From Pandoraea pneumonica (GTDB lineage Bacteria; Pseudomonadota; Gammaproteobacteria; Burkholderiales; Burkholderiaceae): DNA of 64,000 bases. Under the pieces are notes generated by a model. That model did no database searches. It was not told where the DNA came from and saw nothing but the letters and a program-made list of their open reading frames with translations. The stretch spans positions 248,001 through 312,000 of the forward strand of contig NZ_CABPSK010000002.1 in the NCBI RefSeq assembly GCF_902459645.1, read 5' to 3'. Both the position numbers and the translations under genes were made by a program. Positions 18,432-29,492 of this stretch are shown here, piece after piece. Positions within the stretch are counted from its first letter, which is position 1; every line of letters starts with the position of its first letter.

Positions 18432-18466
18432 CCGGCTGCGACAAATTCGGAGTTCGCCCATATACA

Positions 18467-18478
18467 TTGACGCGTCAA
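18467..18478. promoter_or_regulatory. 12-bp palindrome upstream of the precursor gene
   Basis: TTGACGCGTCAA is a perfect palindrome 82 bases before the precursor start. It includes a TTGAC half that could be a -35 element, so a regulator bound here would occlude the promoter. This is inference; no matching regulator is known. Confidence 0.4.
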
Positions 18479-18496
18479 CTCCGGATAGTGCGAAAA

Positions 18497-18521
18497 CGTC
18501 GAGATCACCCGAGTCTCGACG
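18497..18521 (+). promoter_or_regulatory. Leader hairpin upstream of the precursor gene
   Basis: CGTCGAGA (18497-18504) and TCTCGACG (18514-18521) form a perfect 8-bp stem with a 9-base loop in the presumed 5' leader. There is no T-run, so it is more likely a leader structure or operator than a terminator for the Lrp gene. Confidence 0.4.
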
Positions 18522-18559
18522 ATCCGTCCCTCAAAACAAGCCTATCGGAGGGCTTTCGC

Positions 18560-18718
18560 ATGCAATCGCAAGACCCCGTTCCTAACCCATTCCCCAACCC
18601 TGACGAATCGATCGTTACCGAGGGTGCCATCGAAGACGATGGCCTGAAGGAAATCCCCGATTTCGAAGTCATCTCAGTCGAAGGCTGCCTGAGCAGCTCG
18701 AACGTTCTCGGATTCTGA
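18560..18718 (+). CDS. Candidate RiPP precursor peptide
   Basis: This 52-residue peptide is the likely substrate of the downstream radical SAM enzymes. The ATG at 18560 has GGAGGG at 18547-18552, 7 bases upstream, the strongest ribosome-binding site in the cluster, so the longer open frame from 18467 is not used. The peptide is acidic (11 Asp/Glu, one Lys), Pro/Asn-rich at the start, and has a hydrophobic strand-like segment IPDFEVISVEG (32-42) suited to binding a PqqD-type recognition element. The C-terminal CLSSSNVLGF (43-52) contains the only Cys and is the presumed core. Its position before maturase genes and its composition make it a precursor; the family is unknown to me. Confidence 0.75.
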   Translation: MQSQDPVPNPFPNPDESIVTEGAIEDDGLKEIPDFEVISVEGCLSSSNVLGF

Positions 18719-18730
18719 ACGCACCTCGCC

Positions 18731-18750
18731 GCTCCGGCGTACGCCGGAGC
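18731..18750 (+). promoter_or_regulatory. Perfect 20-bp palindrome between precursor and maturase genes
   Basis: GCTCCGGCGTACGCCGGAGC is a perfect inverted repeat located 12 bases after the precursor stop and 22 bases before the first radical SAM start. No T-run follows, so it probably stabilises the short precursor mRNA or attenuates read-through, giving more substrate than enzyme, as is common in RiPP operons. Confidence 0.6.
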
Positions 18751-18772
18751 CGACGGAAAACGGGAGAATCCG

Positions 18773-19780
18773 ATGAAACAGGTGCATTGGCTGCATACCC
18801 CCCTGTTCGCAAAGTGGTACGTCACCAATCGCTGCAATCTCCGCTGTCGGCACTGTTATCTCGACGACTACACGCTGAGGCCGCCCCTTGGGCGATTGCT
18901 AGACGTCGCGGATGAACTGTCGGATGCGGGCGTTCGTAGTGTCGCCATCTTGGGCGGAGAGCCGCTCACTCGAGATGATCTTGAGTTGCTCATGGGGCGC
19001 CTCACCACGCTCGGGATTACCACCCGCATCGCCACAAACGGTATGTATGCCACGCCGGAGCGTGTCCTGAGCCTCATAGAGCACGGGGCAAGCGCATTTC
19101 AAGTCAGCCTTGAGGGCGCAACGGCAGAGGCCTGCGAAGCGATACGGGGGCCGAATACCTTCCCTCGAATCACTGCCGGTGTCGAAGCGCTAGTGGCCGG
19201 TGGTGCCTGCGTCACGCTCGCGTACACCATGACGGCGCAGAACTACCGACAGTTACCGCAATGTCTTGATCTGGCAGAAAAGCTGGGCGTCTCGGAAGTG
19301 AAGCTCGCCCCGTTCATCCCGACCGGTTCAGGGGCAAAGGCAGCGCAGGCACTGAGCCTTACGCCAGTCATTTGCCGCGAAATCGTGACTTCACTTTCAG
19401 CGGCTTGCGCAAAACATCCCGGCCTAAAGATCGACGGTGGACCTTTCCTCCGGCGCATCGCCATCACTCCTCGCGCTACTCAACACATGCAACAACGTGG
19501 CACGTTCGGATGCGGCGCCGGAACCACCACGATCATCATCAACAGCGATCTTTCCGTCTCCGCTTGCGACATGAGAACGCAAAGCGAGCGAACGACCCGC
19601 CGCCTCGGAGAAGGCACATCGCTTGCCGATATTTGGCGGGATTCACCGCTATTCGCACGGTGGAGAGATCAGACAGACCGTGCTGATTTTGCGGGTGTGC
19701 ATCAACATGGCTGTCATCTCGCATACCAGTCTTACGGCAAAGACTTGTTTGGCAACGAGGCGATTCGTGATGAAAGGTGA
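18773..19780 (+). CDS. Radical SAM enzyme with partial SPASM domain
   Basis: The 335-residue protein has the radical SAM [4Fe-4S] motif CNLRCRHC (C21, C25, C28), the SAM-binding GGEP at 61-64, and a C-terminal SPASM/twitch-like region with C247, C265 (SACDM) and C314 (HGCH). Spacing such as INSDLSVSACDM and LADIWRDSP matches SPASM proteins, but there are fewer Cys than in a full two-cluster SPASM domain. Such enzymes form C-S, C-C or C-O cross-links, or remove groups, on precursor peptides. GGGAGA is 7 bases upstream. The stop overlaps the MFS start by 11 bases. Likely modifies the 52-residue peptide. Confidence 0.85.
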   Translation: MKQVHWLHTPLFAKWYVTNRCNLRCRHCYLDDYTLRPPLGRLLDVADELSDAGVRSVAILGGEPLTRDDLELLMGRLTTLGITTRIATNGMYATPERVLSLIEHGASAFQVSLEGATAEACEAIRGPNTFPRITAGVEALVAGGACVTLAYTMTAQNYRQLPQCLDLAEKLGVSEVKLAPFIPTGSGAKAAQALSLTPVICREIVTSLSAACAKHPGLKIDGGPFLRRIAITPRATQHMQQRGTFGCGAGTTTIIINSDLSVSACDMRTQSERTTRRLGEGTSLADIWRDSPLFARWRDQTDRADFAGVHQHGCHLAYQSYGKDLFGNEAIRDER

Positions 19781-21023
19781 CGTGTCGTTGTCGAAAGACC
19801 TACGACTTTGGCGACGACTCGCACTAACGCAGGCACTGCTAGGGCCAGAGATATTTTCAATGGCCATACTCGTCATCTTTTTCGTCGAGTATGCCGGGTT
19901 CAGCTTTTCCGTATTCAGCACATTTACTGCGAGTCTTTTCGTTCTGAACTGGCTGTTGGAGGTGCCCGCAGGGGCTTGCGCAGATAGGTTTGGGCGAAAG
20001 AAATGCCTGATTGCGGGAAACACGATTTATGTCGGCGCAATCGTCCTATTGGTCGTCGCGAATAATCATCTCTCTCTGGCGTTTGTCGCACTGATGTATG
20101 CCGTCGGTAGTTGCCTGGCTAGCGGCACGTTTCAAGCCACGATGTATGAAGCATTCGCCGCACGCCAGGCAACCCCGCAGTTCCACGCCGTCATGGCGGA
20201 AGCAACAGGTCTCGGGCTTTGGGGTGCCGCACTTGCCGCCACTGTCGGTGGGTGGCTAGCGGGTTACTCGCTCGCATTGCCCCTTCTGTTGGATGCGGCG
20301 GCCCTTGCTCTGCTCACGCTCTACCTGCTGCTGCGAATGCCGTCCGCAACGCATCGGGAATTGTCAGCACCTGCCGAACCATCGCTCTCGATTCGAAACG
20401 TGCTCGCTTCGGCATGGCGCATTACGCTGACCTCGCCAACGCTCTGCGTGTTATTCGCCGGATTGGCCATCACATTCGCATGCGTGCGCGCTTCCTTTAA
20501 CGCGTACCAGCCACTCATGCTCGATACGGGCATTCCGGTGAAGTACTTCGGCGCTGCGTTCTGTGGACTTGTTCTGCTTGGCGGGGGCGTCGCCAAGCTG
20601 TTTTCGAAACTCCCCAAACCGTGGCTGGATCGAGGGTATCCGGAACTCGTCGTCATCGCGGTTTTCATCGCGGGATTGCTCCCCTTCGCGCTTATGGAAA
20701 CGTCCCCGATATTGTTGTTGCTGAGCGTGGCGGCGCATCAATTGGTTCGCGGGATATTCCCGTCGTACTACAGCTATCGCATCAATCGCGAGATCCCTAG
20801 CGGCACACCTGCCAGAACCACGGTGCTATCCATCGCCAATCTCATTCGTGCGCTACTGACCGCGCTCGCGGTGTTTGGCATTGGTGCCCTTGCGGAAAAC
20901 GTCGATCTCACTACCGCTTACCGGTTGATCAATACGCTCGCGATTGCGGCCTTAATCGTGCTTGTGACCCTCTCTCACCGTTCCCGCGACAATGTTGGCA
21001 CTTCCCATCCCTCAGACAATTAG
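19770..21023 (+). CDS. MFS transporter of the RiPP-like cluster, presumed exporter
   Basis: The 417-residue protein has about 12 membrane segments and the MFS motif A form DRFGRKKCLIAG after helix 2. The ATG at 19770 (MKGDVSLSKD) is chosen because membrane segments begin shortly afterwards and ACGAGG lies about 10 bases upstream. It overlaps the first radical SAM gene by 11 bases and the second by 32 bases, so it belongs to the same transcript. Export of the mature peptide or product is inferred from context; uptake of a product cannot be excluded. Confidence 0.82.
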   Translation: MKGDVSLSKDLRLWRRLALTQALLGPEIFSMAILVIFFVEYAGFSFSVFSTFTASLFVLNWLLEVPAGACADRFGRKKCLIAGNTIYVGAIVLLVVANNHLSLAFVALMYAVGSCLASGTFQATMYEAFAARQATPQFHAVMAEATGLGLWGAALAATVGGWLAGYSLALPLLLDAAALALLTLYLLLRMPSATHRELSAPAEPSLSIRNVLASAWRITLTSPTLCVLFAGLAITFACVRASFNAYQPLMLDTGIPVKYFGAAFCGLVLLGGGVAKLFSKLPKPWLDRGYPELVVIAVFIAGLLPFALMETSPILLLLSVAAHQLVRGIFPSYYSYRINREIPSGTPARTTVLSIANLIRALLTALAVFGIGALAENVDLTTAYRLINTLAIAALIVLVTLSHRSRDNVGTSHPSDN

Positions 21024-22239
21024 CCTAACGATCACCACCGAATGTGGCTCCCGGTGCCCGCATTGTTATCTTGTTGAGACGGACGAAATCGGTCGTCACC
21101 GTTTGTCTGTTGCCGATGTGGAAAACGTCGTGGAAGACGCCGCGAAAAATGGCGTTCATATGATGGTCGTTTCTGGCGGCGACCCACTTCGGCACCCTGA
21201 CCTCGACCCCATACTTCGCACGATTCGTCGACATCGAATTCTGCCGCTGCTCGGCATTTCCGGTGACTATCTGCTGTCTGCACACATTGCGTTGTTGACC
21301 GAATTGGGCATCCCTTGTGTTCAAGTCAGTCTCGATTCAGCCACTGCATCGCTGCACGATAGTCGTCGCGGGATAGGCAGCTTTCGCAACGTGATGGCAA
21401 ACGTCGAGCGGCTGCAAAACGCCGGAATCCTCGTCAATATCGCGGCCTGTCTGAGCATGGAGAACCGCTCCGAGCTCGTTCCGCTACTCGACCTAGCGAA
21501 GCAACTCGATATCCACAAAGTCAAAATCGCCTTCTACGAGCAGGTTGGGCCAATTCAGGGGGCAACGGTAATTCCCGAGTCCACGCGCGCAAAGTTACTC
21601 TCGCTGACGAAACACTTCGCTGACGCCAACGATTGGTCCGACCGTGTTGTTGTGCTGGGTTACGACTTCCATAGTGGTGAACGATTGCCGACACGCGCCA
21701 TGGGTCGGCCACCGATTGTCGTCACAGCTGACGGCACGCTTCGAAGCGGCGAGGATGGCCCCGGATTTGGTCATTTGCGCGAAGCCAACACCCTGTCGTA
21801 TCAATACAGAGCGTGGCTAAGTGAACGAATCTCGAACTATTTCGATGCAGTCATTTCTCTGCACAGTAGTCATTTAGGCATCCGATCCATTCTCGATGTG
21901 AACGAAGGACTTCCTTGCAATGGCATTGTGTTTGCCGAGGGCGGCTTACATACGGTCCTGATCCGCGATGGACTCGACTGGCCGCTTGACCAATTCACCG
22001 TGCTTCACGAACTCGGACACATCGCGACGGGCACATTGCGCGCCAATGTTCAGCGCGAATACCGCGCCGATGACGAGAGGATGGCGAACTTGTGGGCGCT
22101 CGAATGCATACGTCCCGTCATACGACCCGATGAGTTTCCGTACTACGTGCGCGATGCGAAAACGTCCGAACACGCGCTCTATACCCGCATTACCCAGCGT
22201 CTCGCGGGCGACGTGATTCCCCCAACAATATCGGAGTGA
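20992..22239 (+). CDS. Radical SAM protein fused to an ImmA/IrrE-type metallopeptidase domain
   Basis: This 415-residue protein is two enzymes in one chain. The first about 270 residues are a radical SAM domain with CGSRCPHC (C18, C22, C25), SGGDP at 61-65 and a C-terminal remnant VVTADGTLRSGEDG resembling a SPASM segment that has lost its cysteines. Residues about 285-405 look like an ImmA/IrrE (COG2856-like) zinc peptidase: HELGH (339-343) and, 19 residues on, E362-RMANLWALECIRP, matching the third zinc ligand helix E-x-x-A-N-x-x-A. The obvious reading is modification plus leader cleavage. The ATG overlaps the MFS gene by 32 bases; the ribosome-binding site is weak, suggesting translational coupling. 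Confidence 0.82.
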   Translation: MLALPIPQTISLTITTECGSRCPHCYLVETDEIGRHRLSVADVENVVEDAAKNGVHMMVVSGGDPLRHPDLDPILRTIRRHRILPLLGISGDYLLSAHIALLTELGIPCVQVSLDSATASLHDSRRGIGSFRNVMANVERLQNAGILVNIAACLSMENRSELVPLLDLAKQLDIHKVKIAFYEQVGPIQGATVIPESTRAKLLSLTKHFADANDWSDRVVVLGYDFHSGERLPTRAMGRPPIVVTADGTLRSGEDGPGFGHLREANTLSYQYRAWLSERISNYFDAVISLHSSHLGIRSILDVNEGLPCNGIVFAEGGLHTVLIRDGLDWPLDQFTVLHELGHIATGTLRANVQREYRADDERMANLWALECIRPVIRPDEFPYYVRDAKTSEHALYTRITQRLAGDVIPPTISE

Positions 22240-22499
22240 AAGCTGTGTATCGATTTAACAAATCGCTAGTCGAGCGCAAGCACGACAGAAGTCTTTTTAA
22301 CGCGAACACCTTCGAGATACTCCGCTTCAACGAAGCCGGGTATCGACTCATCACCGAGTTCCGAAACGCAGATTTCTCACTCGACGACTTCCTACGGATC
22401 GCGTGTTCGTATTTTCCCAACGAAGACTCGGCGCGCGCCTTTTTTCACCGTTGCCTGCAACAGAACGTGTTTTGCACTTCGGTCGAAATTCCCGCTTGA
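22236..22499 (+). CDS. PqqD-like peptide-recognition (RRE) protein
   Basis: The 87-residue protein starts with GTG in a GTGA overlap with the previous stop. SLFNANTFEILRFNEAGYRLITEF (positions 19-42) has the beta-hairpin plus helix pattern of PqqD (lfN..t..i..lN..G..i), followed by a helical C-terminal half ending in a Cys-containing segment. PqqD-fold proteins bind the leader of a RiPP precursor and present it to radical SAM enzymes. Its overlap with the radical SAM-peptidase gene fits this role. Recognition is by pattern, and the homology is short. Confidence 0.75.
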   Translation: MKAVYRFNKSLVERKHDRSLFNANTFEILRFNEAGYRLITEFRNADFSLDDFLRIACSYFPNEDSARAFFHRCLQQNVFCTSVEIPA

Positions 22500-22524
22500 C
22501 GCCGGTTTCGTTTTTCGTTAAAAA

Positions 22525-22544
22525 TGCGAATGATTCTTATTTAA
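22525..22544 (+). promoter_or_regulatory. Candidate Fur box upstream of the heme operon
   Basis: TGCGAATGATTCTTATTTAA lies in an AT-rich patch between the PqqD-like gene and the heme receptor. It resembles the Fur consensus of repeated GATAAT hexamers, with GAATGAT and TTCTTAT units, and iron-responsive heme uptake loci normally carry such a site. No hemP-like small gene is visible after it. Confidence 0.65.
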
Positions 22545-22715
22545 GAACGACAAGTTCGTTGTCCCAAGGCCGAAAAACATGCGGCCGGGTGGCACGAGAT
22601 TTCGCCAGCCGCGCCTGCCAGCGTGCTCCGCCCTGTCATACGACACCGCGGAACACGACGATTGCCACGAGCGCTTGCCAGCCAGCAACGGGGTTATTTG
22701 CACTGGGAGCCAGCA

Positions 22716-25178
22716 GTGAAGCAGTCGTCGAGCGGCGGGGACCGCCAATTTGTCATGACCACGCGCCGGGGACACGGCGCCACCACTTCGATTCGTACCG
22801 GCCACAGCGCCGGTCATCGCATCGAAGACTCGCGCAGCGAACGCGCTCGTGAGAACCGTCGGCGCCTGCGTCCGCTGGTGCGCGCGGTGTTTGCCGCTGT
22901 CTGGTTGCCTGCCGGAATGTCTGCCGCCTACGCGCAGCAAGCCCCGGCACCGGTCGATGCCACGACGTCGGCCGCACCGGCCGTCCAGCTCGCCCAGACA
23001 TCGCCCAAAGCACCGCTGCAAGTCGCCGAAGTCCAGCTGAGAGATGTGAACGTGACAGCCACGCGCACGCCCACCGAATCGGTTCGCACACCGGCCTCGA
23101 TCTCGGTCATCACCGATCAGGACCTCGAAGAGCAGCAAGCCCAAGACATCAAGGAGGCGCTGCGCTACGAGCCCGGCGTCACGGTGCGCCGTGCCCCCTA
23201 TCGCCCCGGCTCGGCCGCGCTGGGCGGCGGGCGTGACGGCAACTCGAGCATCAATATCCGAGGTCTCGAAGGCAACCGCGTCGCCCTCTTCGAAGACGGC
23301 ATTCGCATGCCGTCCGGTTACTCGTTCGGCCCGCTCGAAGCCGGTCGCGGCGACTACATGAGTATGGACATCCTGCGCCGCATCGAAATCTTGCGTGGCC
23401 CGGCATCGTCGCTCTACGGCAGCGACGGCCTGACCGGCGTGGTCAACTTCCTGACCAAAGATCCGCAAGATTTGCTCGATACCTTCGGCAAGTCGACCTA
23501 CTTCTCGCTGCGCCCGTACTACAACTCGATGGACCGCAGCTTCGGCACCACGGCCCAAGCCGCCTGGGGCGGCGAGCAGTGGCAGGGCATGGTGATCATC
23601 GACGGCAACAAGGGCCACGAACTCGACAGCCACGGCAGCAACAACACCGCCAGCACCGCGCGCACCACCGCCAATCCGCAAGACAGCAATGGCGACTCGG
23701 TGCTGGGTAAGCTCGTGTTCAAGGCGACGCCGACCTCGACCTTCAAGCTCACCGCCGAGAACGTGCGCCGCCGCGTCGACACCCGCGTGCTGTCCGCCGT
23801 CAATCCGCCGACGACCCTCGGGCTGACCACCAGCGACCGCTTAGAGCGCAACCGCGTCAGCCTCGACTACGACTTCAACGACGCGTCGCAAGCGTATGTG
23901 CAGAACGTGCACGCGCTGTTCTACTACCAAGACGCCAAGAACAATCAGTACGCGTACGAAAAACGCACCGCAGGCGATCGTACGCGCGACAACACGTACA
24001 AAGAACGCACCATCGGCGGCTCGCTGCAAGCCGAGAGCAACTTCGTGACCGGCCCGCTCGCCCACAAGCTCGTGTACGGCACGGACGCGAGCAGCGCCTT
24101 CATCACCAGCTATCGCAACGGCACGGTGCCAGGGGCGGGTGAATCGTTCCCGAACAAGGCGTTCCCCGATACCGACTACACGCTCTTCGGTGCGTTCTTG
24201 CAGGATGAAATCCGTTACGGCGCGCTGACCGTCACGCCGGGCATCCGTTACGACGCCTACTGGCTCTCGCCCAAGCAAAACGACCCGCTGTATGTTTCGC
24301 AATCGGCGAGCGGTCAACCGGTCGCCCCCACCTCGTCGAACGACTCGGCGTTCTCGCCGCGTCTGGCGATCATGTATGAAATTGCGCCGTCGCTGATTCC
24401 GTACGTGCAATACGCGCGCGGCTTCCGTACCCCGACGCCCGATCAGGTCAACAACGGCTTTGCGAACCCGCTGTATGGCTACATGTCGATCGCCAACCCG
24501 AACCTCAAGCCGGAAACGAGCGACACGGTGGAACTCGGTCTGCGCGGGCGTCTGGCCACCACGTTGGGGCCGGTCACGTATAGCACCGCGGTGTTTGCGG
24601 GCAACTACCGCAACTTCATCTCGCAGCAGAACATCAGCGGTTCGGGCCGCCCGAACGATCCGCTCATCTATCAGTACGTGAACTTCAGCCGCGCCCGGAT
24701 TCAAGGCTGGGAAGGCCGCGCGACGTGGGCACTCAAAGGCGGTGTGACGCTGCGCACGGCGATGGCCTATACGCACGGTACGACGGAAGACGATGGTTCG
24801 AGCAGCCAGCCGCTCAACACCATCAACCCGTTCTCGATGGTGCTGGGCGTGCGCTACGAGCCGAACAGCACGTGGTTCGCACAAGCCGACCTGCTGTTCC
24901 AGGCCGCCAAGTCGCAAAGCCAGATCGCGAAGACCTGCACCTCGGGCACGCAGCAGAACCAAAACTGCTGGGCACCGGGCTCGTCGATCGTGCTCGACCT
25001 CTCGGGCGGTTATCACATCAACAAACACGCCACGGTTTATGCGGGCGTCTACAACGTGTTCGATCGCAAGTACTGGAATTGGTCGGACGTGCGCAACATC
25101 GCCGAGACGTCGAACGTGAAGGACGCGTATTCGGCACCGGGCCGCAGCGTGGCTGTGAGCCTGAAATTGCAGTACTGA
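22716..25178 (+). CDS. hmuR: TonB-dependent outer-membrane heme receptor
   Basis: This protein of about 820 residues binds heme or hemoproteins at the cell surface and imports heme using TonB energy. A signal peptide ends at SAAYAQQAP, the plug begins at DVNVTATRTP with ITDQDLEEQQAQDIKEAL, and the barrel carries GFRTPTPDQ and NPNLKPETSDTVELGLRG, corresponding to the FRAP and NPNL boxes of heme receptors. It ends in an aromatic residue (KLQY). The start is uncertain: GTG at 22716 has GGGAG nearby, GTG at 22623 and ATG at 22755 are alternatives. It is the first gene of the hmu operon. Confidence 0.9.
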   Translation: MKQSSSGGDRQFVMTTRRGHGATTSIRTGHSAGHRIEDSRSERARENRRRLRPLVRAVFAAVWLPAGMSAAYAQQAPAPVDATTSAAPAVQLAQTSPKAPLQVAEVQLRDVNVTATRTPTESVRTPASISVITDQDLEEQQAQDIKEALRYEPGVTVRRAPYRPGSAALGGGRDGNSSINIRGLEGNRVALFEDGIRMPSGYSFGPLEAGRGDYMSMDILRRIEILRGPASSLYGSDGLTGVVNFLTKDPQDLLDTFGKSTYFSLRPYYNSMDRSFGTTAQAAWGGEQWQGMVIIDGNKGHELDSHGSNNTASTARTTANPQDSNGDSVLGKLVFKATPTSTFKLTAENVRRRVDTRVLSAVNPPTTLGLTTSDRLERNRVSLDYDFNDASQAYVQNVHALFYYQDAKNNQYAYEKRTAGDRTRDNTYKERTIGGSLQAESNFVTGPLAHKLVYGTDASSAFITSYRNGTVPGAGESFPNKAFPDTDYTLFGAFLQDEIRYGALTVTPGIRYDAYWLSPKQNDPLYVSQSASGQPVAPTSSNDSAFSPRLAIMYEIAPSLIPYVQYARGFRTPTPDQVNNGFANPLYGYMSIANPNLKPETSDTVELGLRGRLATTLGPVTYSTAVFAGNYRNFISQQNISGSGRPNDPLIYQYVNFSRARIQGWEGRATWALKGGVTLRTAMAYTHGTTEDDGSSSQPLNTINPFSMVLGVRYEPNSTWFAQADLLFQAAKSQSQIAKTCTSGTQQNQNCWAPGSSIVLDLSGGYHINKHATVYAGVYNVFDRKYWNWSDVRNIAETSNVKDAYSAPGRSVAVSLKLQY

Positions 25179-25278
25179 TCCTTCGGGATAGTCAGACGAT
25201 GCGCCCGCCGCCGCGCGGGCGCCTGCCAGCTAACTTCAAGCCACCTGCCAGCAAGCTACCGCAACAAAGGAATTTGCC

Positions 25279-26382
25279 ATGATGAATGCTCAGAACGCCA
25301 CCGCCGCTGCCAACGCAGTGTTTCCCGCACTCGCCGACGTCACCCGTCTGCGCAGCGAATTCCAACGCGTGAAGACCGAACAGAATCTGCGCGATCGCGA
25401 CGCCGCTGCCGCACTCGGTGTGTCCGAAGGCGAGACTGTTGCCGCGTTTGTCGGTGAACACGTCGTGCGCCTGCGCCCCGACTTCATCGAGATTGTCGAA
25501 GCGCTGCCCGCACTGGGTCGCGTCATGGCGCTCACGCGCAACAATGCCGCCGTGCACGAAAAGGATGGCCCCTACGAGAAGCTCTCGCATAACGGCACCA
25601 TCGGTCTGGGCCTCGGCAAAGAACTCGATCTGCGCATCTTCTATCACCAGTGGGCCTACGGTTACGCCGTCGAAACGCCAGCCGAGAACGGTCCGCGCCG
25701 CTCGCTGCAATTCTTCGATAAGACCGGCACCGCCGTGCACAAGATGTTCCTGCGCGACCACAGCGATGTTGCCGCGTACGACGCGCTCGTCGCGAAGTTC
25801 CGCGCCGACGATCAGACCCCGGGGGAACACGTTGTCGCCGCCGACGCGCCGAAGGCCGAGACGCCCGACGCCGACATCGACGTTGCCGCGTTCCAGCGCG
25901 ACTGGCTCGCCATGACCGACACGCACCAGTTCTTCGACATGCTTCGCCGTCACGGCGTATCGCGCGCGCAAGCTTTGCGTCTCGCGCCCGCAGAGCACGC
26001 GCAACGCGTACCCGCATCGTCGGTGCGCACGCTGCTCGACGATGCTGCGGGCACCGACCTGCCGATCATGGTGTTCGTGGGCAATGCCGGGATGATTCAG
26101 ATTCACACCGGCCCGGTGAAGAACATCCGCGTGATGGGGCCGTGGGTCAATGTGCTCGACGCTGGCTTCAACCTGCACCTGCGCGAAGACCTCGTCGCCA
26201 CCGCTTGGGTCGTGCGCAAGCCGACGTCGGACGGCATCGTGTCGTCGCTCGAATTGCTCGACGCCTCGGGCATGGTGATTGCCATGTTCTTTGGTGAGCG
26301 CAAACCGGGTCAGGCCGAACGCGAAGACTGGCGTGCAACGCTGGGTCGCGTGGCCGCTGCCACCGCTGTGACGGGAGCGTGA
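25279..26382 (+). CDS. hmuS: Hemin-degrading/heme-trafficking factor HmuS
   Basis: The 367-residue cytoplasmic protein belongs to the HemS/ChuS/HmuS family, a duplicated fold visible as two related halves (GRVMALTRNNAAVHEKDGPY in the first, DLPIMVFVGNAGMIQIHTGP in the second). It receives heme from the ABC importer and stores it or opens the ring to release iron. GGAA lies just upstream of the ATG. Its stop overlaps the hmuT start (GTGA), so translation is coupled. Confidence 0.92.
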   Translation: MMNAQNATAAANAVFPALADVTRLRSEFQRVKTEQNLRDRDAAAALGVSEGETVAAFVGEHVVRLRPDFIEIVEALPALGRVMALTRNNAAVHEKDGPYEKLSHNGTIGLGLGKELDLRIFYHQWAYGYAVETPAENGPRRSLQFFDKTGTAVHKMFLRDHSDVAAYDALVAKFRADDQTPGEHVVAADAPKAETPDADIDVAAFQRDWLAMTDTHQFFDMLRRHGVSRAQALRLAPAEHAQRVPASSVRTLLDDAAGTDLPIMVFVGNAGMIQIHTGPVKNIRVMGPWVNVLDAGFNLHLREDLVATAWVVRKPTSDGIVSSLELLDASGMVIAMFFGERKPGQAEREDWRATLGRVAAATAVTGA

Positions 26383-27389
26383 GCGTGAAAACGAAATTCG
26401 ACGCACGTGACGCCCATGACACGCTCACGCGCACGTCATCGGTGACGTCCGTGGGTGTGCCGGGCAACGCTGCCCGGCGAGCGCTGCTCACGGGCGGCAT
26501 GGCCGTTGCGGCGGGGGCGTGGCTCTCGCCGCTCGCGTCGGCGTGGGCGGCCACGCCCGCCCCCGGTGCCAATGCAACGGGGCCTAAAACGGGACCAGAA
26601 GCGGGGCCGAAGCGCGTTGTCGTTGCGGGCGGCGCGCTGACGGAAATCGTCTACGCGCTCGGTGCGCAGGACCGTGTGGTGGCCAACGACCTCACCAGCC
26701 TTTACCCCGAAGCCGCCACGAAGCTGCCGAAGATTGGCTATCTGCGCACGCTCTCCGCCGAGGGCGTGTTGTCGCTGCATCCCGATCTGTTGCTCGCGGG
26801 CGCCGAAGCCGGGCCGCCGAACGTGCTCACGCAGATCGCCGCGGCGGGCGTGCCGGTGAAGCGATTCACGCACGGTTACACGGCCGAGTTGGTGCGCGAC
26901 AACATTCGCGATGTCGCCGCCGCGATGCGCCTGAACGACGACGGCGCACGCGTGGCCGGGCGCTTCATGGCGGACTGGCAGAAAGCGCGCGACGAGATTA
27001 CGCAACGCTATGGCAAGCAACGCCGACCACGTGTGTTGTTCATCCTTGGCCACACCGGCAATCAGGTGATGGTCGCGGGTCAGGACACCGCCGCCGACGC
27101 GATGCTCGCCTACGCCGGTGCCGACAACGCTCTCTCTGGCTTTACGGGCTACCGCCCGCTCACGGCAGAAGCCGCGGTGGCCGCGCAGCCCGATGTGCTG
27201 CTCACCACGACGACTGGGCCGTCGAGCGCCGATCCGGCGGCGACGTTGCTGGCACAGCCGGGGTTGGCGAACACGCCTGCGGGACGCGCCAAGCGAGTGG
27301 TGAGCTTCGATGCGCTCTATCTGCTCGGCTTCGGTCCGCGTCTGCCACAGGCCGTGGCGGAACTCGCGCAGCGCGTGCACGCCGCGTAA
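26379..27389 (+). CDS. hmuT: Periplasmic hemin-binding protein HmuT
   Basis: This 336-residue solute-binding protein delivers heme to HmuUV. The N-terminus has ARRALLTGGMAVAAGAW (32-48), a twin-arginine-like signal following an unusually long n-region, then a cleavage area near SAWAATPAP. The mature part has the two-lobed class III binding-protein pattern (VVVAGGALTEIVYALGAQDR and DVLLTTTTGP). The GTG start overlaps the hmuS stop; a later in-frame start cannot be excluded. Confidence 0.9.
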   Translation: MSVKTKFDARDAHDTLTRTSSVTSVGVPGNAARRALLTGGMAVAAGAWLSPLASAWAATPAPGANATGPKTGPEAGPKRVVVAGGALTEIVYALGAQDRVVANDLTSLYPEAATKLPKIGYLRTLSAEGVLSLHPDLLLAGAEAGPPNVLTQIAAAGVPVKRFTHGYTAELVRDNIRDVAAAMRLNDDGARVAGRFMADWQKARDEITQRYGKQRRPRVLFILGHTGNQVMVAGQDTAADAMLAYAGADNALSGFTGYRPLTAEAAVAAQPDVLLTTTTGPSSADPAATLLAQPGLANTPAGRAKRVVSFDALYLLGFGPRLPQAVAELAQRVHAA

Positions 27390-27461
27390 ATCGCGCCGGG
27401 CGTCTGCTTTTGGCGACCGGCCCGCTATAGGTCAGCTGTAGGTCAGCAATTGAACGAAGAT

Positions 27462-28577
27462 ATGTCAGCCGCTCCCCCGCTCAACGCGCCGTCGCCATCG
27501 CGCGCCGTCGTTCGCCCTGTCACAGGCATCGCTCGCCGTCGTCCGCCACGATGGCTGGTGATGACCGTCCTCGTCTCATTGCTTGCACTCGCCGTGCTGG
27601 CGGCGCTGTGCGGGGGCGCGTACCGGATCGCGCCGGGCGAAGCCATCACGGCGCTGTTTCGTGGCGCCACTGGCGATTTCGTACAAGATCAGGCACGCAG
27701 CGTGATGTTGCAGATTCGTCTGCCGCGCATCGTGCTCGGCATGCTCGTCGGCGCGGGTTTCGGTGCCGCTGGCGCAGCGTTACAGGCGTTGTTTCGCAAC
27801 CCGCTTGCCGACCCCGGTCTGATCGGCGTCGCGAGCGGTGCGGCGCTGGGTGCGGCGGGTGTCATCGTGATGGGCGGCGTATTGCTGCCCGCGGCGCTGG
27901 CAGCATCGCTCGGGCTCTGGATGCTGCCGTTGGCGGCGTTCGTTGGCGCACTGGGCGTCACCGCGCTCGTGTATCGGCTAGCTGCGGGTCGTGGCCGTCT
28001 CGCCCTGCCCTTGCTGCTGCTCGCGGGTATCGCCATCAACGCGATTTCCGGCGCTGCGATTGGCTTGCTGACGTATCTCGCGAACGACACGCAACTGCGC
28101 ACGCTCACGTTCTGGACACTCGGCAGCCTAGGCGGCGCGCAATGGCCGATGCTGGCCGTGATCGTGTGGCCGGTGGCACTCGGCATTGTGGTGCTGGCGA
28201 GTCAGTGCCGCTCGCTCAACGCGCTGCTGCTCGGTGAAGCCGAAGCGTTGCATCTAGGCGTGGCCGTGCAGTCGGTAAAGCGCCGAGTGATGGTCGCGTG
28301 TGCGTTGTGCGTGGGGGCTCTCGTGGCATCGAGCGGGATGATCGGCTTCATCGGCTTGATTGCACCGCATATCGTGCGGCTGGTGGTCGGCCCCGATCCG
28401 CGCGCGGTGCTGCCTGCGGCGGCGCTGTTCGGCGCGATTCTGACATTGCTCGCCGACCTCGTCGCTCGCACGTGGGTGTCGCCTGCGGAGTTGCCGCTCG
28501 GCATTCTGACGGCACTGCTCGGCGCCCCCTTCTTCCTGATGCTGCTGTGGCGACGCCGTGGCCAGTTCGGGTTGTGA
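27462..28577 (+). CDS. hmuU: Hemin ABC transporter permease HmuU
   Basis: This 371-residue FecCD-type permease has about ten membrane helices. NPLADPGLIGVASGAALGA, the EAEALHLGV coupling helix and FIGLIAPHIVRLVVGPD near the C-terminus are family hallmarks. It forms the inner-membrane channel with HmuV. The ATG at 27462 is taken as start; a TTG at 27450 in the same frame is possible. There is a 72-base gap after hmuT. Confidence 0.92.
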   Translation: MSAAPPLNAPSPSRAVVRPVTGIARRRPPRWLVMTVLVSLLALAVLAALCGGAYRIAPGEAITALFRGATGDFVQDQARSVMLQIRLPRIVLGMLVGAGFGAAGAALQALFRNPLADPGLIGVASGAALGAAGVIVMGGVLLPAALAASLGLWMLPLAAFVGALGVTALVYRLAAGRGRLALPLLLLAGIAINAISGAAIGLLTYLANDTQLRTLTFWTLGSLGGAQWPMLAVIVWPVALGIVVLASQCRSLNALLLGEAEALHLGVAVQSVKRRVMVACALCVGALVASSGMIGFIGLIAPHIVRLVVGPDPRAVLPAAALFGAILTLLADLVARTWVSPAELPLGILTALLGAPFFLMLLWRRRGQFGL

Positions 28578-28643
28578 AATACGGAATGGGAACCGTGGAA
28601 CGACGAACGTGACGCGAGCCCCGAGACCCGACAGGACTTCATC

Positions 28644-29492
28644 ATGCTTAGTGCCCACAATCTGACGATCGCCCATACCGATTCGCCCGTGCTCGACGGT
28701 CTGTCGCTCGATATCCGTCCCGGTGAATTGCTCGTGCTGCTCGGGCGCAATGGCGCGGGTAAGAGCACATTGCTCAAAGCGCTTGCGGGCGAGCCGATGT
28801 CGCCGCGTGCGCAAGTGTCGGGCGCCATCACACTCAACGGTGCGCATCTGTCGCAATACACCACCGCAGCACTCGCCCGTTTGCGTGCCGTGCTGCCGCA
28901 AACGGCGCAGTTGTCGTTTCCGTTCAGCGCGTTGGAAATCGTGACCATGGGGCGGCTGCCGTTTTCGACGCCACGTCGCGGCAACGCACGCGGCGCGAGC
29001 GATACCGATATCGCCACGGCAGCGCTGGAGCGCGTGGGCGCTGGGCCGCTGTTGCATCGCGACGTGACAACGCTTTCTGGCGGGGAATGGGCGCGCGTGC
29101 AATTCGCGCGAGTGCTGGCGCAGTTGTGGCCTTCGGACGCGGCGGGTGAATCTTCGATCCCGTCGGTGCCGCGCTATTTGCTGCTCGACGAGCCGACGGC
29201 GGCGCTAGATCTTGCGCATCAACATCATCTGCTTGCGCTCACGCGTGAACTCGCGAAGTCGTGGGGATTCGGTGCGATGGCCATCGTGCACGACGTCAAC
29301 CTCGCCGCGCGTCATGCGGACCGTATGGCGCTGCTGGCCGATGGCCGCATTCTGGCGACGGGCACGCCACGCGAAATCATGCGCGCCGACCTCATCGAGC
29401 AGACGCTCGGCCTGCCCGTTCACGTGATTACCCCCGACATTGCGCATCTGTCGGCAGGCGCCGCTGGCGTGCCGATTGCGTTACCGGCGTAG
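28644..29492 (+). CDS. hmuV: Hemin ABC transporter ATPase HmuV
   Basis: The 282-residue ATPase powers heme import. Walker A GRNGAGKST (34-42), signature LSGGE (144-148), Walker B YLLLDEPTAALD (178-189) and a switch His in AIVHDVN are intact. It closes the operon, converging on the cyclodeaminase-family gene with only 15 bases between stops and no clear terminator. Confidence 0.94.
   Translation: MLSAHNLTIAHTDSPVLDGLSLDIRPGELLVLLGRNGAGKSTLLKALAGEPMSPRAQVSGAITLNGAHLSQYTTAALARLRAVLPQTAQLSFPFSALEIVTMGRLPFSTPRRGNARGASDTDIATAALERVGAGPLLHRDVTTLSGGEWARVQFARVLAQLWPSDAAGESSIPSVPRYLLLDEPTAALDLAHQHHLLALTRELAKSWGFGAMAIVHDVNLAARHADRMALLADGRILATGTPREIMRADLIEQTLGLPVHVITPDIAHLSAGAAGVPIALPA

Follow-up and report, generated by a model that had tools for sequence, protein, structure and literature searches.

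The window analysed here, a 64,000-nucleotide stretch of Pandoraea pneumonica DNA, holds at 18560-22499 five same-direction genes spanning about 4 kb, and raises the question of whether they mature a peptide and, if so, into what kind of product. The genes encode a short peptide, two radical S-adenosylmethionine (SAM) proteins, a major facilitator superfamily (MFS) transporter and a small fifth protein. The original prediction, made from the sequence alone, took them for a cluster for a ribosomally synthesized and post-translationally modified peptide (RiPP). Conserved precursors in all five other loci that we found, together with a predicted RiPP recognition element (RRE) fold for gene 5, bear this out, and we hold with great confidence that the locus is a RiPP cassette. 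We judge it a rare, undescribed-looking family, new in its combination and in its precursor and built of parts that are each of a known kind. To the account of how it works given below, with its conditional steps, we assign a probability of roughly 0.7.

18560-18718, + strand: precursor peptide, 52 residues, single Cys
18773-19780, + strand: radical SAM protein 1 with a reduced SPASM-like C-terminus, 335 residues
19770-21023, + strand: MFS transporter, predicted as a probable exporter, 417 residues; MFS_1 59.6 bits
20992-22239, + strand: radical SAM protein 2 with HExxH, 415 residues
20992-21840, + strand: radical SAM domain of protein 2, lacking the auxiliary Cys motif
21844-22239, + strand: C-terminal HExxH domain of protein 2, M78-like zincin, below the Pfam cut-off
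22236-22499, + strand: gene 5, stand-alone protein with a predicted RRE fold, 87 residues, GTG start; no family model

On re-reading, the open reading frames (ORFs) were as first called, the 52-residue peptide gene among them, and neighbours among the last four genes share 11, 32 and 4 bases. The two radical SAM proteins pass the PF04055 cut-off of 29.5 bits (72.2 and 72.4 bits), and the transporter, likewise named in the original prediction, passes that of MFS_1 (33.4 bits). The gene cluster is more than chance, because in the five other loci, too, a short ORF with the motif adjoins homologous radical SAM genes.

The precursor segment is conserved in two phyla

The six loci comprise three from Pandoraea (the window, P. 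nosoerga and P. bronchicola), one each from Burkholderia territorii and a Caballeronia sp., and one from a metagenome-assembled genome (MAG) of the Halobacteriovoraceae, and so span two phyla. In all six, a short single-Cys ORF lies 5′ of radical SAM 1 and carries the pattern F-x-x-[IV]-x-V-[ED]-G-C-[LM]-S-S, so that the conserved precursor in related clusters, which the original prediction had set as its test, is present throughout. The F, V, G, C, S and S positions are invariant, and the residue following Cys is Leu in five precursors and Met in one. The window's own segment, FEVISVEGCLSS, occupies residues 35-46. The shorter motif [VI][ED]GC[LM]SS is confined to the precursors, with no other occurrence in the window or the relative loci examined, and no NCBIfam family matched the two precursors P0001 and P0017. 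Across the 15 pairs of the 12-codon segment, which had been picked for its conservation, 69 codons were identical, 69 synonymous and 42 nonsynonymous; synonymous changes outnumbered nonsynonymous ones in 11 pairs, were fewer in 3 and equal in 1.

The number of residues preceding the Phe is 34, 30, 28 or 36 in four precursors, 13 in Caballeronia and 6 in the MAG. Because the last two appear to hold little room for a conventional leader, recognition of the precursor probably lies in the FExIxV stretch itself.

This segment is kept across the two phyla while the other cassette proteins fall to 27-59% identity, and we think for this reason that the product is one small compound (a cofactor, metallophore or signal) rather than a variable family of bacteriocins. 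A fixed segment amid diverging proteins, where even the best conserved enzyme is about 43% identical between the two phyla, is the pattern expected for cofactors and comparable small products derived from peptides; to our knowledge, few of these are known. The segment also pinpoints the residues of interest.

A predicted recognition-element fold for gene 5

Gene 5 had been labelled PqqD-like, and at the level of sequence that label found no support: no Pfam or NCBIfam family matched, an hhalign comparison with one MftB returned nothing, comparison with one PqqD-family protein gave no sequence link, and against PDB sequences there was nothing convincing (best E 0.03, DddI). What stood was the type of fold, as the structural model is confident (predicted local distance difference test score, pLDDT, 90.8) and the solved structures closest to it are RRE-containing RiPP enzymes, from which we predict an RRE fold for the protein. 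The gene is present in four of the six loci; P. nosoerga gave no match, and the MAG contig ends before the place where the gene would be expected.

Radical SAM protein 2 carries an M78-like HExxH domain

The radical SAM cysteines of protein 2 are conserved in all five members. The structural model (pLDDT 80.8; some stretches, the radical SAM Cys loop among them, are modelled with low confidence) places the predicted fold of the radical SAM part nearest SuiB, SkfB, PqqE and MoaA. In the C-terminal domain, His339, Glu340, His343 and the downstream Glu362 are invariant in the four full-length members. This part had been read as a fusion to an ImmA/IrrE peptidase; the radical SAM part, the HExxH and the downstream Glu held up, and the family assignment fell short, with PF06114 (M78, ImmA/IrrE) scoring 13.4 bits (E 0.07) on the window protein and 15.9 bits (E 0.012) on its domain alone, against a gathering score of 22. 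M78 is the best Pfam match of the domain, found in three of the four full-length members and missing from one, and the best member reaches E 0.0019 as a whole protein and 2.3e-4 as the domain alone. An ERxxNLWxL pattern follows the HExxH, which we take to fit M78 and to weigh against an oxygenase. No M78 structure was among the fold matches listed for protein 2, where the radical SAM part accounts for all that is listed and the absence is hence uninformative. ‘Peptidase’ is the weakest label in the cassette, and we favour a protease by a modest measure.

The fusion poses a clear question, protease or oxygenase. According to the accessible part of one report (PMC12636437), radical SAM-HExxH fusions are already known and turned out to be oxygenases; ChlBH, first annotated as a metallopeptidase, is an alpha-ketoglutarate-dependent hydroxylase. 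By analogy, the HExxH domain of protein 2 could be an iron/alpha-ketoglutarate oxygenase, in which case a radical crosslink would be followed by hydroxylation and general proteases would remove the leader. We consider this unlikely for the present cassette, since TIGR04267 (mod_HExxH) matched nothing in the whole genome at E values up to 10, in a search without a positive control (0 of 14 control genomes passed the cut-off), and the domain alone matched no NCBIfam model in any of the four members while three of them match PF06114. The existence of such fusions does weaken the case for novelty that the original prediction built on two radical SAM proteins and a HExxH fusion, both of which are known singly.

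The cassette is rare and patchy, and probably acquired horizontally

The searches covered genome sets that overlap and are samples, not a census. With protein 2 as query and at most four candidates scored per genome, 398 genomes of the family yielded five matches including the window genome; among 399 genomes of the order, only the window's own genome matched. An alignment of protein 1 detected the cassette in 3 of 32 Pandoraea genomes and not in the other 29, and found its own genome alone among 369 genomes of the class and 339 of the phylum. When contigs were scanned with an alignment of the protein 1 C-terminus, five loci came back, four already found and one new; with protein 2 alone no relative came back, and as the scan used two short peptide patterns only, divergent members can be missed. 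Two scans of viral contigs found no relative. Within the lineage of the MAG, matches numbered 2 among 129 genomes at the level of order and 2 among 290 at that of phylum, the second in both being the genome G844. We did not count G844 as a member: its score was 161.2 bits, where three intact members reached 532.6 to 554.5 and the decayed copy 208.6, its protein is a longer, Cys-rich SPASM protein, and no [VI][ED]G.C-type motif lies within 1.5 kb.

Among plasmids, protein 2 matched 44 records, none with one place covering 80% of the query, and protein 1 matched 20, of which 13 reached 80% cover and 10 were annotated mftC. The plasmid matches also include two Rhizobium regions and one Paraburkholderia region; on a Rhizobium acidisoli plasmid (L024 2049-6357), an aldo/keto reductase gene is followed by three adjacent radical SAM genes. 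An Indioceanicola profundi plasmid (L022 5041-9865) encodes three radical SAM proteins, a PqqD-family protein and an NTF2-like protein beside TIR and SIR2 genes. We rejected this cluster as a relative, as its annotated small peptide is without the motif, HExxH is missing from all three of its radical SAM proteins, and the two of these that the tree included group with PqqE, itself on a long branch.

The five Burkholderiaceae loci, counting that of the window, all have the order radical SAM 1, MFS, radical SAM 2, and in four of them gene 5 is present too. The MAG has its radical SAM genes side by side, on a contig that breaks off within the second; by eye, its precursor gene lies between the arms of an inverted repeat (AACCGGGTTAA / TTAACCCGGTT; L017 6196-6460). 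The P. nosoerga copy (L010 9239-12095) has decayed: its precursor and MFS genes look intact, radical SAM 1 is broken and has lost an internal part, protein 2 ends short of the HExxH, and gene 5 is unmatched.

GC content at third codon positions (GC3) is 0.61-0.64 in the five cassette genes against 0.77-0.82 in six neighbours. In Pandoraea without the cassette, the flanking genes lie 47 to 137 bases apart in five of six genomes checked; in the sixth the receptor side gave no match. Read from sequence and not by a family model, the Burkholderia copy follows a metK-like gene and the Caballeronia copy sits beside flagellar-like genes. A self-contained, horizontally acquired cassette is the best explanation. 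At the one chromosomal site shared with both other Pandoraea (L009 and L010), the cassette proteins are 31-59% identical, and the flanking proteins of the window are 86-97% identical to those of the other two; for P. bronchicola alone the figures are 31-49% and 86-97%. Protein 1 is 45% identical to its P. bronchicola counterpart and about 43% identical to that of the MAG, from another phylum; the MFS protein and protein 2 do unite the Pandoraea copies. The divergence may stem from several acquisitions at the same site or from evolution at an unusually high rate.

Such patchiness, horizontal acquisition with its own transporter, and divergence within Pandoraea far beyond that of the flanks are also what speaks for a bacteriocin or antimicrobial RiPP under diversification, which the MFS protein would export and so provide self-protection. 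We regard this as quite unlikely, because a precursor segment kept over two phyla is the reverse of a diversifying bacteriocin and because no additional cassette gene offers itself as a candidate immunity gene.

Two further features concern the cassette as a unit.

18724-18756, + strand: GC-rich hairpin, possible attenuator, between the precursor and enzyme genes; z -2.06
18433-22500, no strand: whole inserted cassette, approximate limits; low GC3, flanking genes near-adjacent in Pandoraea without the cassette

Support for an attenuator, which is possible, is mixed across the six loci: z is under -2 in three, two have long stems that do not surpass those of shuffled sequences, and one has none. 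A promoter/terminator scan, in which the number of sites was no higher than in shuffled sequence, did not call the hairpin a terminator.

Radical SAM protein 1 and the relation to mycofactocin

Protein 1 combines CxxxCxxC with Cys247, Cys265 and Cys314, the last within VHQHGCH. These six cysteines and VHQHGCH are invariant in the five aligned members, the decayed P. nosoerga copy being left out. The original description of a partial SPASM domain is fair, as PF13186 scores 15.5 bits, under its gathering score of 21.5; a full SPASM set has more auxiliary Cys than protein 1. In a tree of 18 rows, proteins 1 and 2 each make up a clade (100/98 and 100/99), and the two clades join each other to the exclusion of seven reference proteins (97/96), a placement that is no more than suggestive given the few rows; the branches to PqqE and NirJ are long, and the branching inside protein 1 is not resolved. 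Considered for a viperin-like defence role, protein 1 matches prokaryotic viperins at 51.6 bits over residues 14-124 only, a similarity that is likely generic to radical SAM proteins.

The best NCBIfam match of protein 1 is MftC (TIGR03962) in all three members scanned, out of five, and three MftA peptides end in IDGMCGVY, which by eye resembles SVEGCLSS. These observations would fit a mycofactocin-like redox cofactor, with protein 1 acting as MftC on the C-terminus and gene 5 as MftB. We find this improbable. The MftC scores (107.5 bits for the window protein, then 129.2 and 118.3) are all far under the 265-bit cut-off, none of the six precursors has the Val-Tyr end, three MftC fall outside the group of proteins 1 and 2 in the tree, and the hhalign comparison of gene 5 with MftB was empty. 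MftD, MftE and MftF are absent among the five cassette genes, the part of the genome to which that search was confined.

Neighbouring heme genes

In three Pandoraea the cassette lies directly 5′ of a TonB heme receptor gene. In the window, 22623-29489 encodes a TonB heme/hemoglobin receptor, a family-less gene, a substrate-binding-like protein, an ATP-binding cassette (ABC) permease and a heme-type ABC ATPase, and 22515-22545, 5′ of the receptor gene, resembles by eye what we take to be a Fur-type site. These downstream heme genes, and the position of the cassette before their operon, would suit a heme- or iron-linked metallophore, a reading we think highly improbable because five of six Pandoraea checked have the receptor gene without the cassette and the Burkholderia and Caballeronia copies adjoin other genes.

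Proposed mechanism

From the genes, their conservation, the precursor segment and the predicted fold of gene 5, we infer the following order of steps. Gene 5 would hold the precursor, most likely via the FExIxV strand, and present the following G-C-[LM]-S-S to both radical SAM enzymes. Protein 1, MftC-like and with a reduced SPASM domain, would make the first change there, likeliest an oxidative one at the sole Cys, such as a thioether; a Cys thioether in particular is a tentative choice, with the odds somewhat against it. Protein 2 would make a second change or help with the first, its M78-like HExxH domain would then excise the modified core, and the MFS protein would export a small product.

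Several points weigh against this account. The cassette has no known product or activity, and its function is dispensable, because the P. nosoerga copy has decayed. The core limits look uncertain, because the residues past SS number 3 to 6 in five precursors and 42, many of them basic, in the MAG. Export by the MFS protein may not be general across the loci, because the MAG lacks an MFS gene between its radical SAM genes, with the contig ending within the second; for the same contig end, gene 5 could not be seen there. The best Foldseek E for the gene 5 model is 0.018, with none at 0.001 or better, and the HExxH domain, besides falling under the Pfam cut-off, has no PDB sequence match up to E 10.

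At its boldest, the proposal is of a new RiPP class in which a bifunctional radical SAM protein 2/M78-like zincin both modifies and cuts, releasing a Cys-based cofactor, metallophore or signal from Gly-Cys-Leu/Met-Ser-Ser, as a cassette mobile between phyla. Taken whole, this is rather unlikely. M78 proteases are repressor-cutting regulators, and a bifunctional radical SAM-M78 enzyme, if real, would give them a biosynthetic role.

Comparison with known systems

A literature search of open-licence papers, judged by title and the start of the abstract among the matches listed, found no description of this gene set, and the strings GCLSSS, VEGCLSS, VDGCLSS and VEGCMSS did not occur in that literature; the label ‘undescribed’ is consistent with this search, within the limits of open-licence papers. 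The accessible part of a paper on leader peptidases (PMC10885120) makes no mention of M78, and the term occurs once in PMC13381572. Like the ChlBH-type fusions, as far as the accessible part of their report goes (PMC12636437), protein 2 joins radical SAM and HExxH in one RiPP-cluster protein; unlike them, it is unmatched by mod_HExxH, and its HExxH part of about 130 residues is nearest M78.

RiPP clusters with a pair of radical SAM enzymes are already known, for thuricin CD and ruminococcin C, according to the accessible parts of the sources, and in thuricin CD the two enzymes form the precursor thioethers. Unlike two-enzyme sactipeptide clusters, the cassette has a precursor with one Cys and an MFS transporter, and the sactipeptide models score low, with 71.1 bits for StsB on protein 1 (cut-off 625) and 41 bits for AlbA on protein 2 (cut-off 850).

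The SynChlorMet cassette also has two radical SAM proteins, as the family names ScmE and ScmF indicate. Both of these are named radical SAM/SPASM, and protein 1 reaches 66.5 (ScmE) and 80.6 (ScmF) bits against cut-offs of 400. Pyrroloquinoline quinone biosynthesis (PqqA, PqqD, PqqE) shares with the cassette a radical SAM enzyme, a separate RRE protein and a small conserved core; it differs in that the PqqE model TIGR02109 gives 68.8 bits against a cut-off of 381.35 and that the cassette is without PqqB and PqqC. Unlike mycofactocin, the cassette has two radical SAM proteins, one with HExxH, and only three auxiliary Cys. Like mycofactocin (MftA, MftB, MftC), it pairs a short precursor with a separate small partner and an MftC-type radical SAM enzyme, and its precursor has, by eye, a similar hydrophobic-acidic-Gly-Cys stretch near its end.

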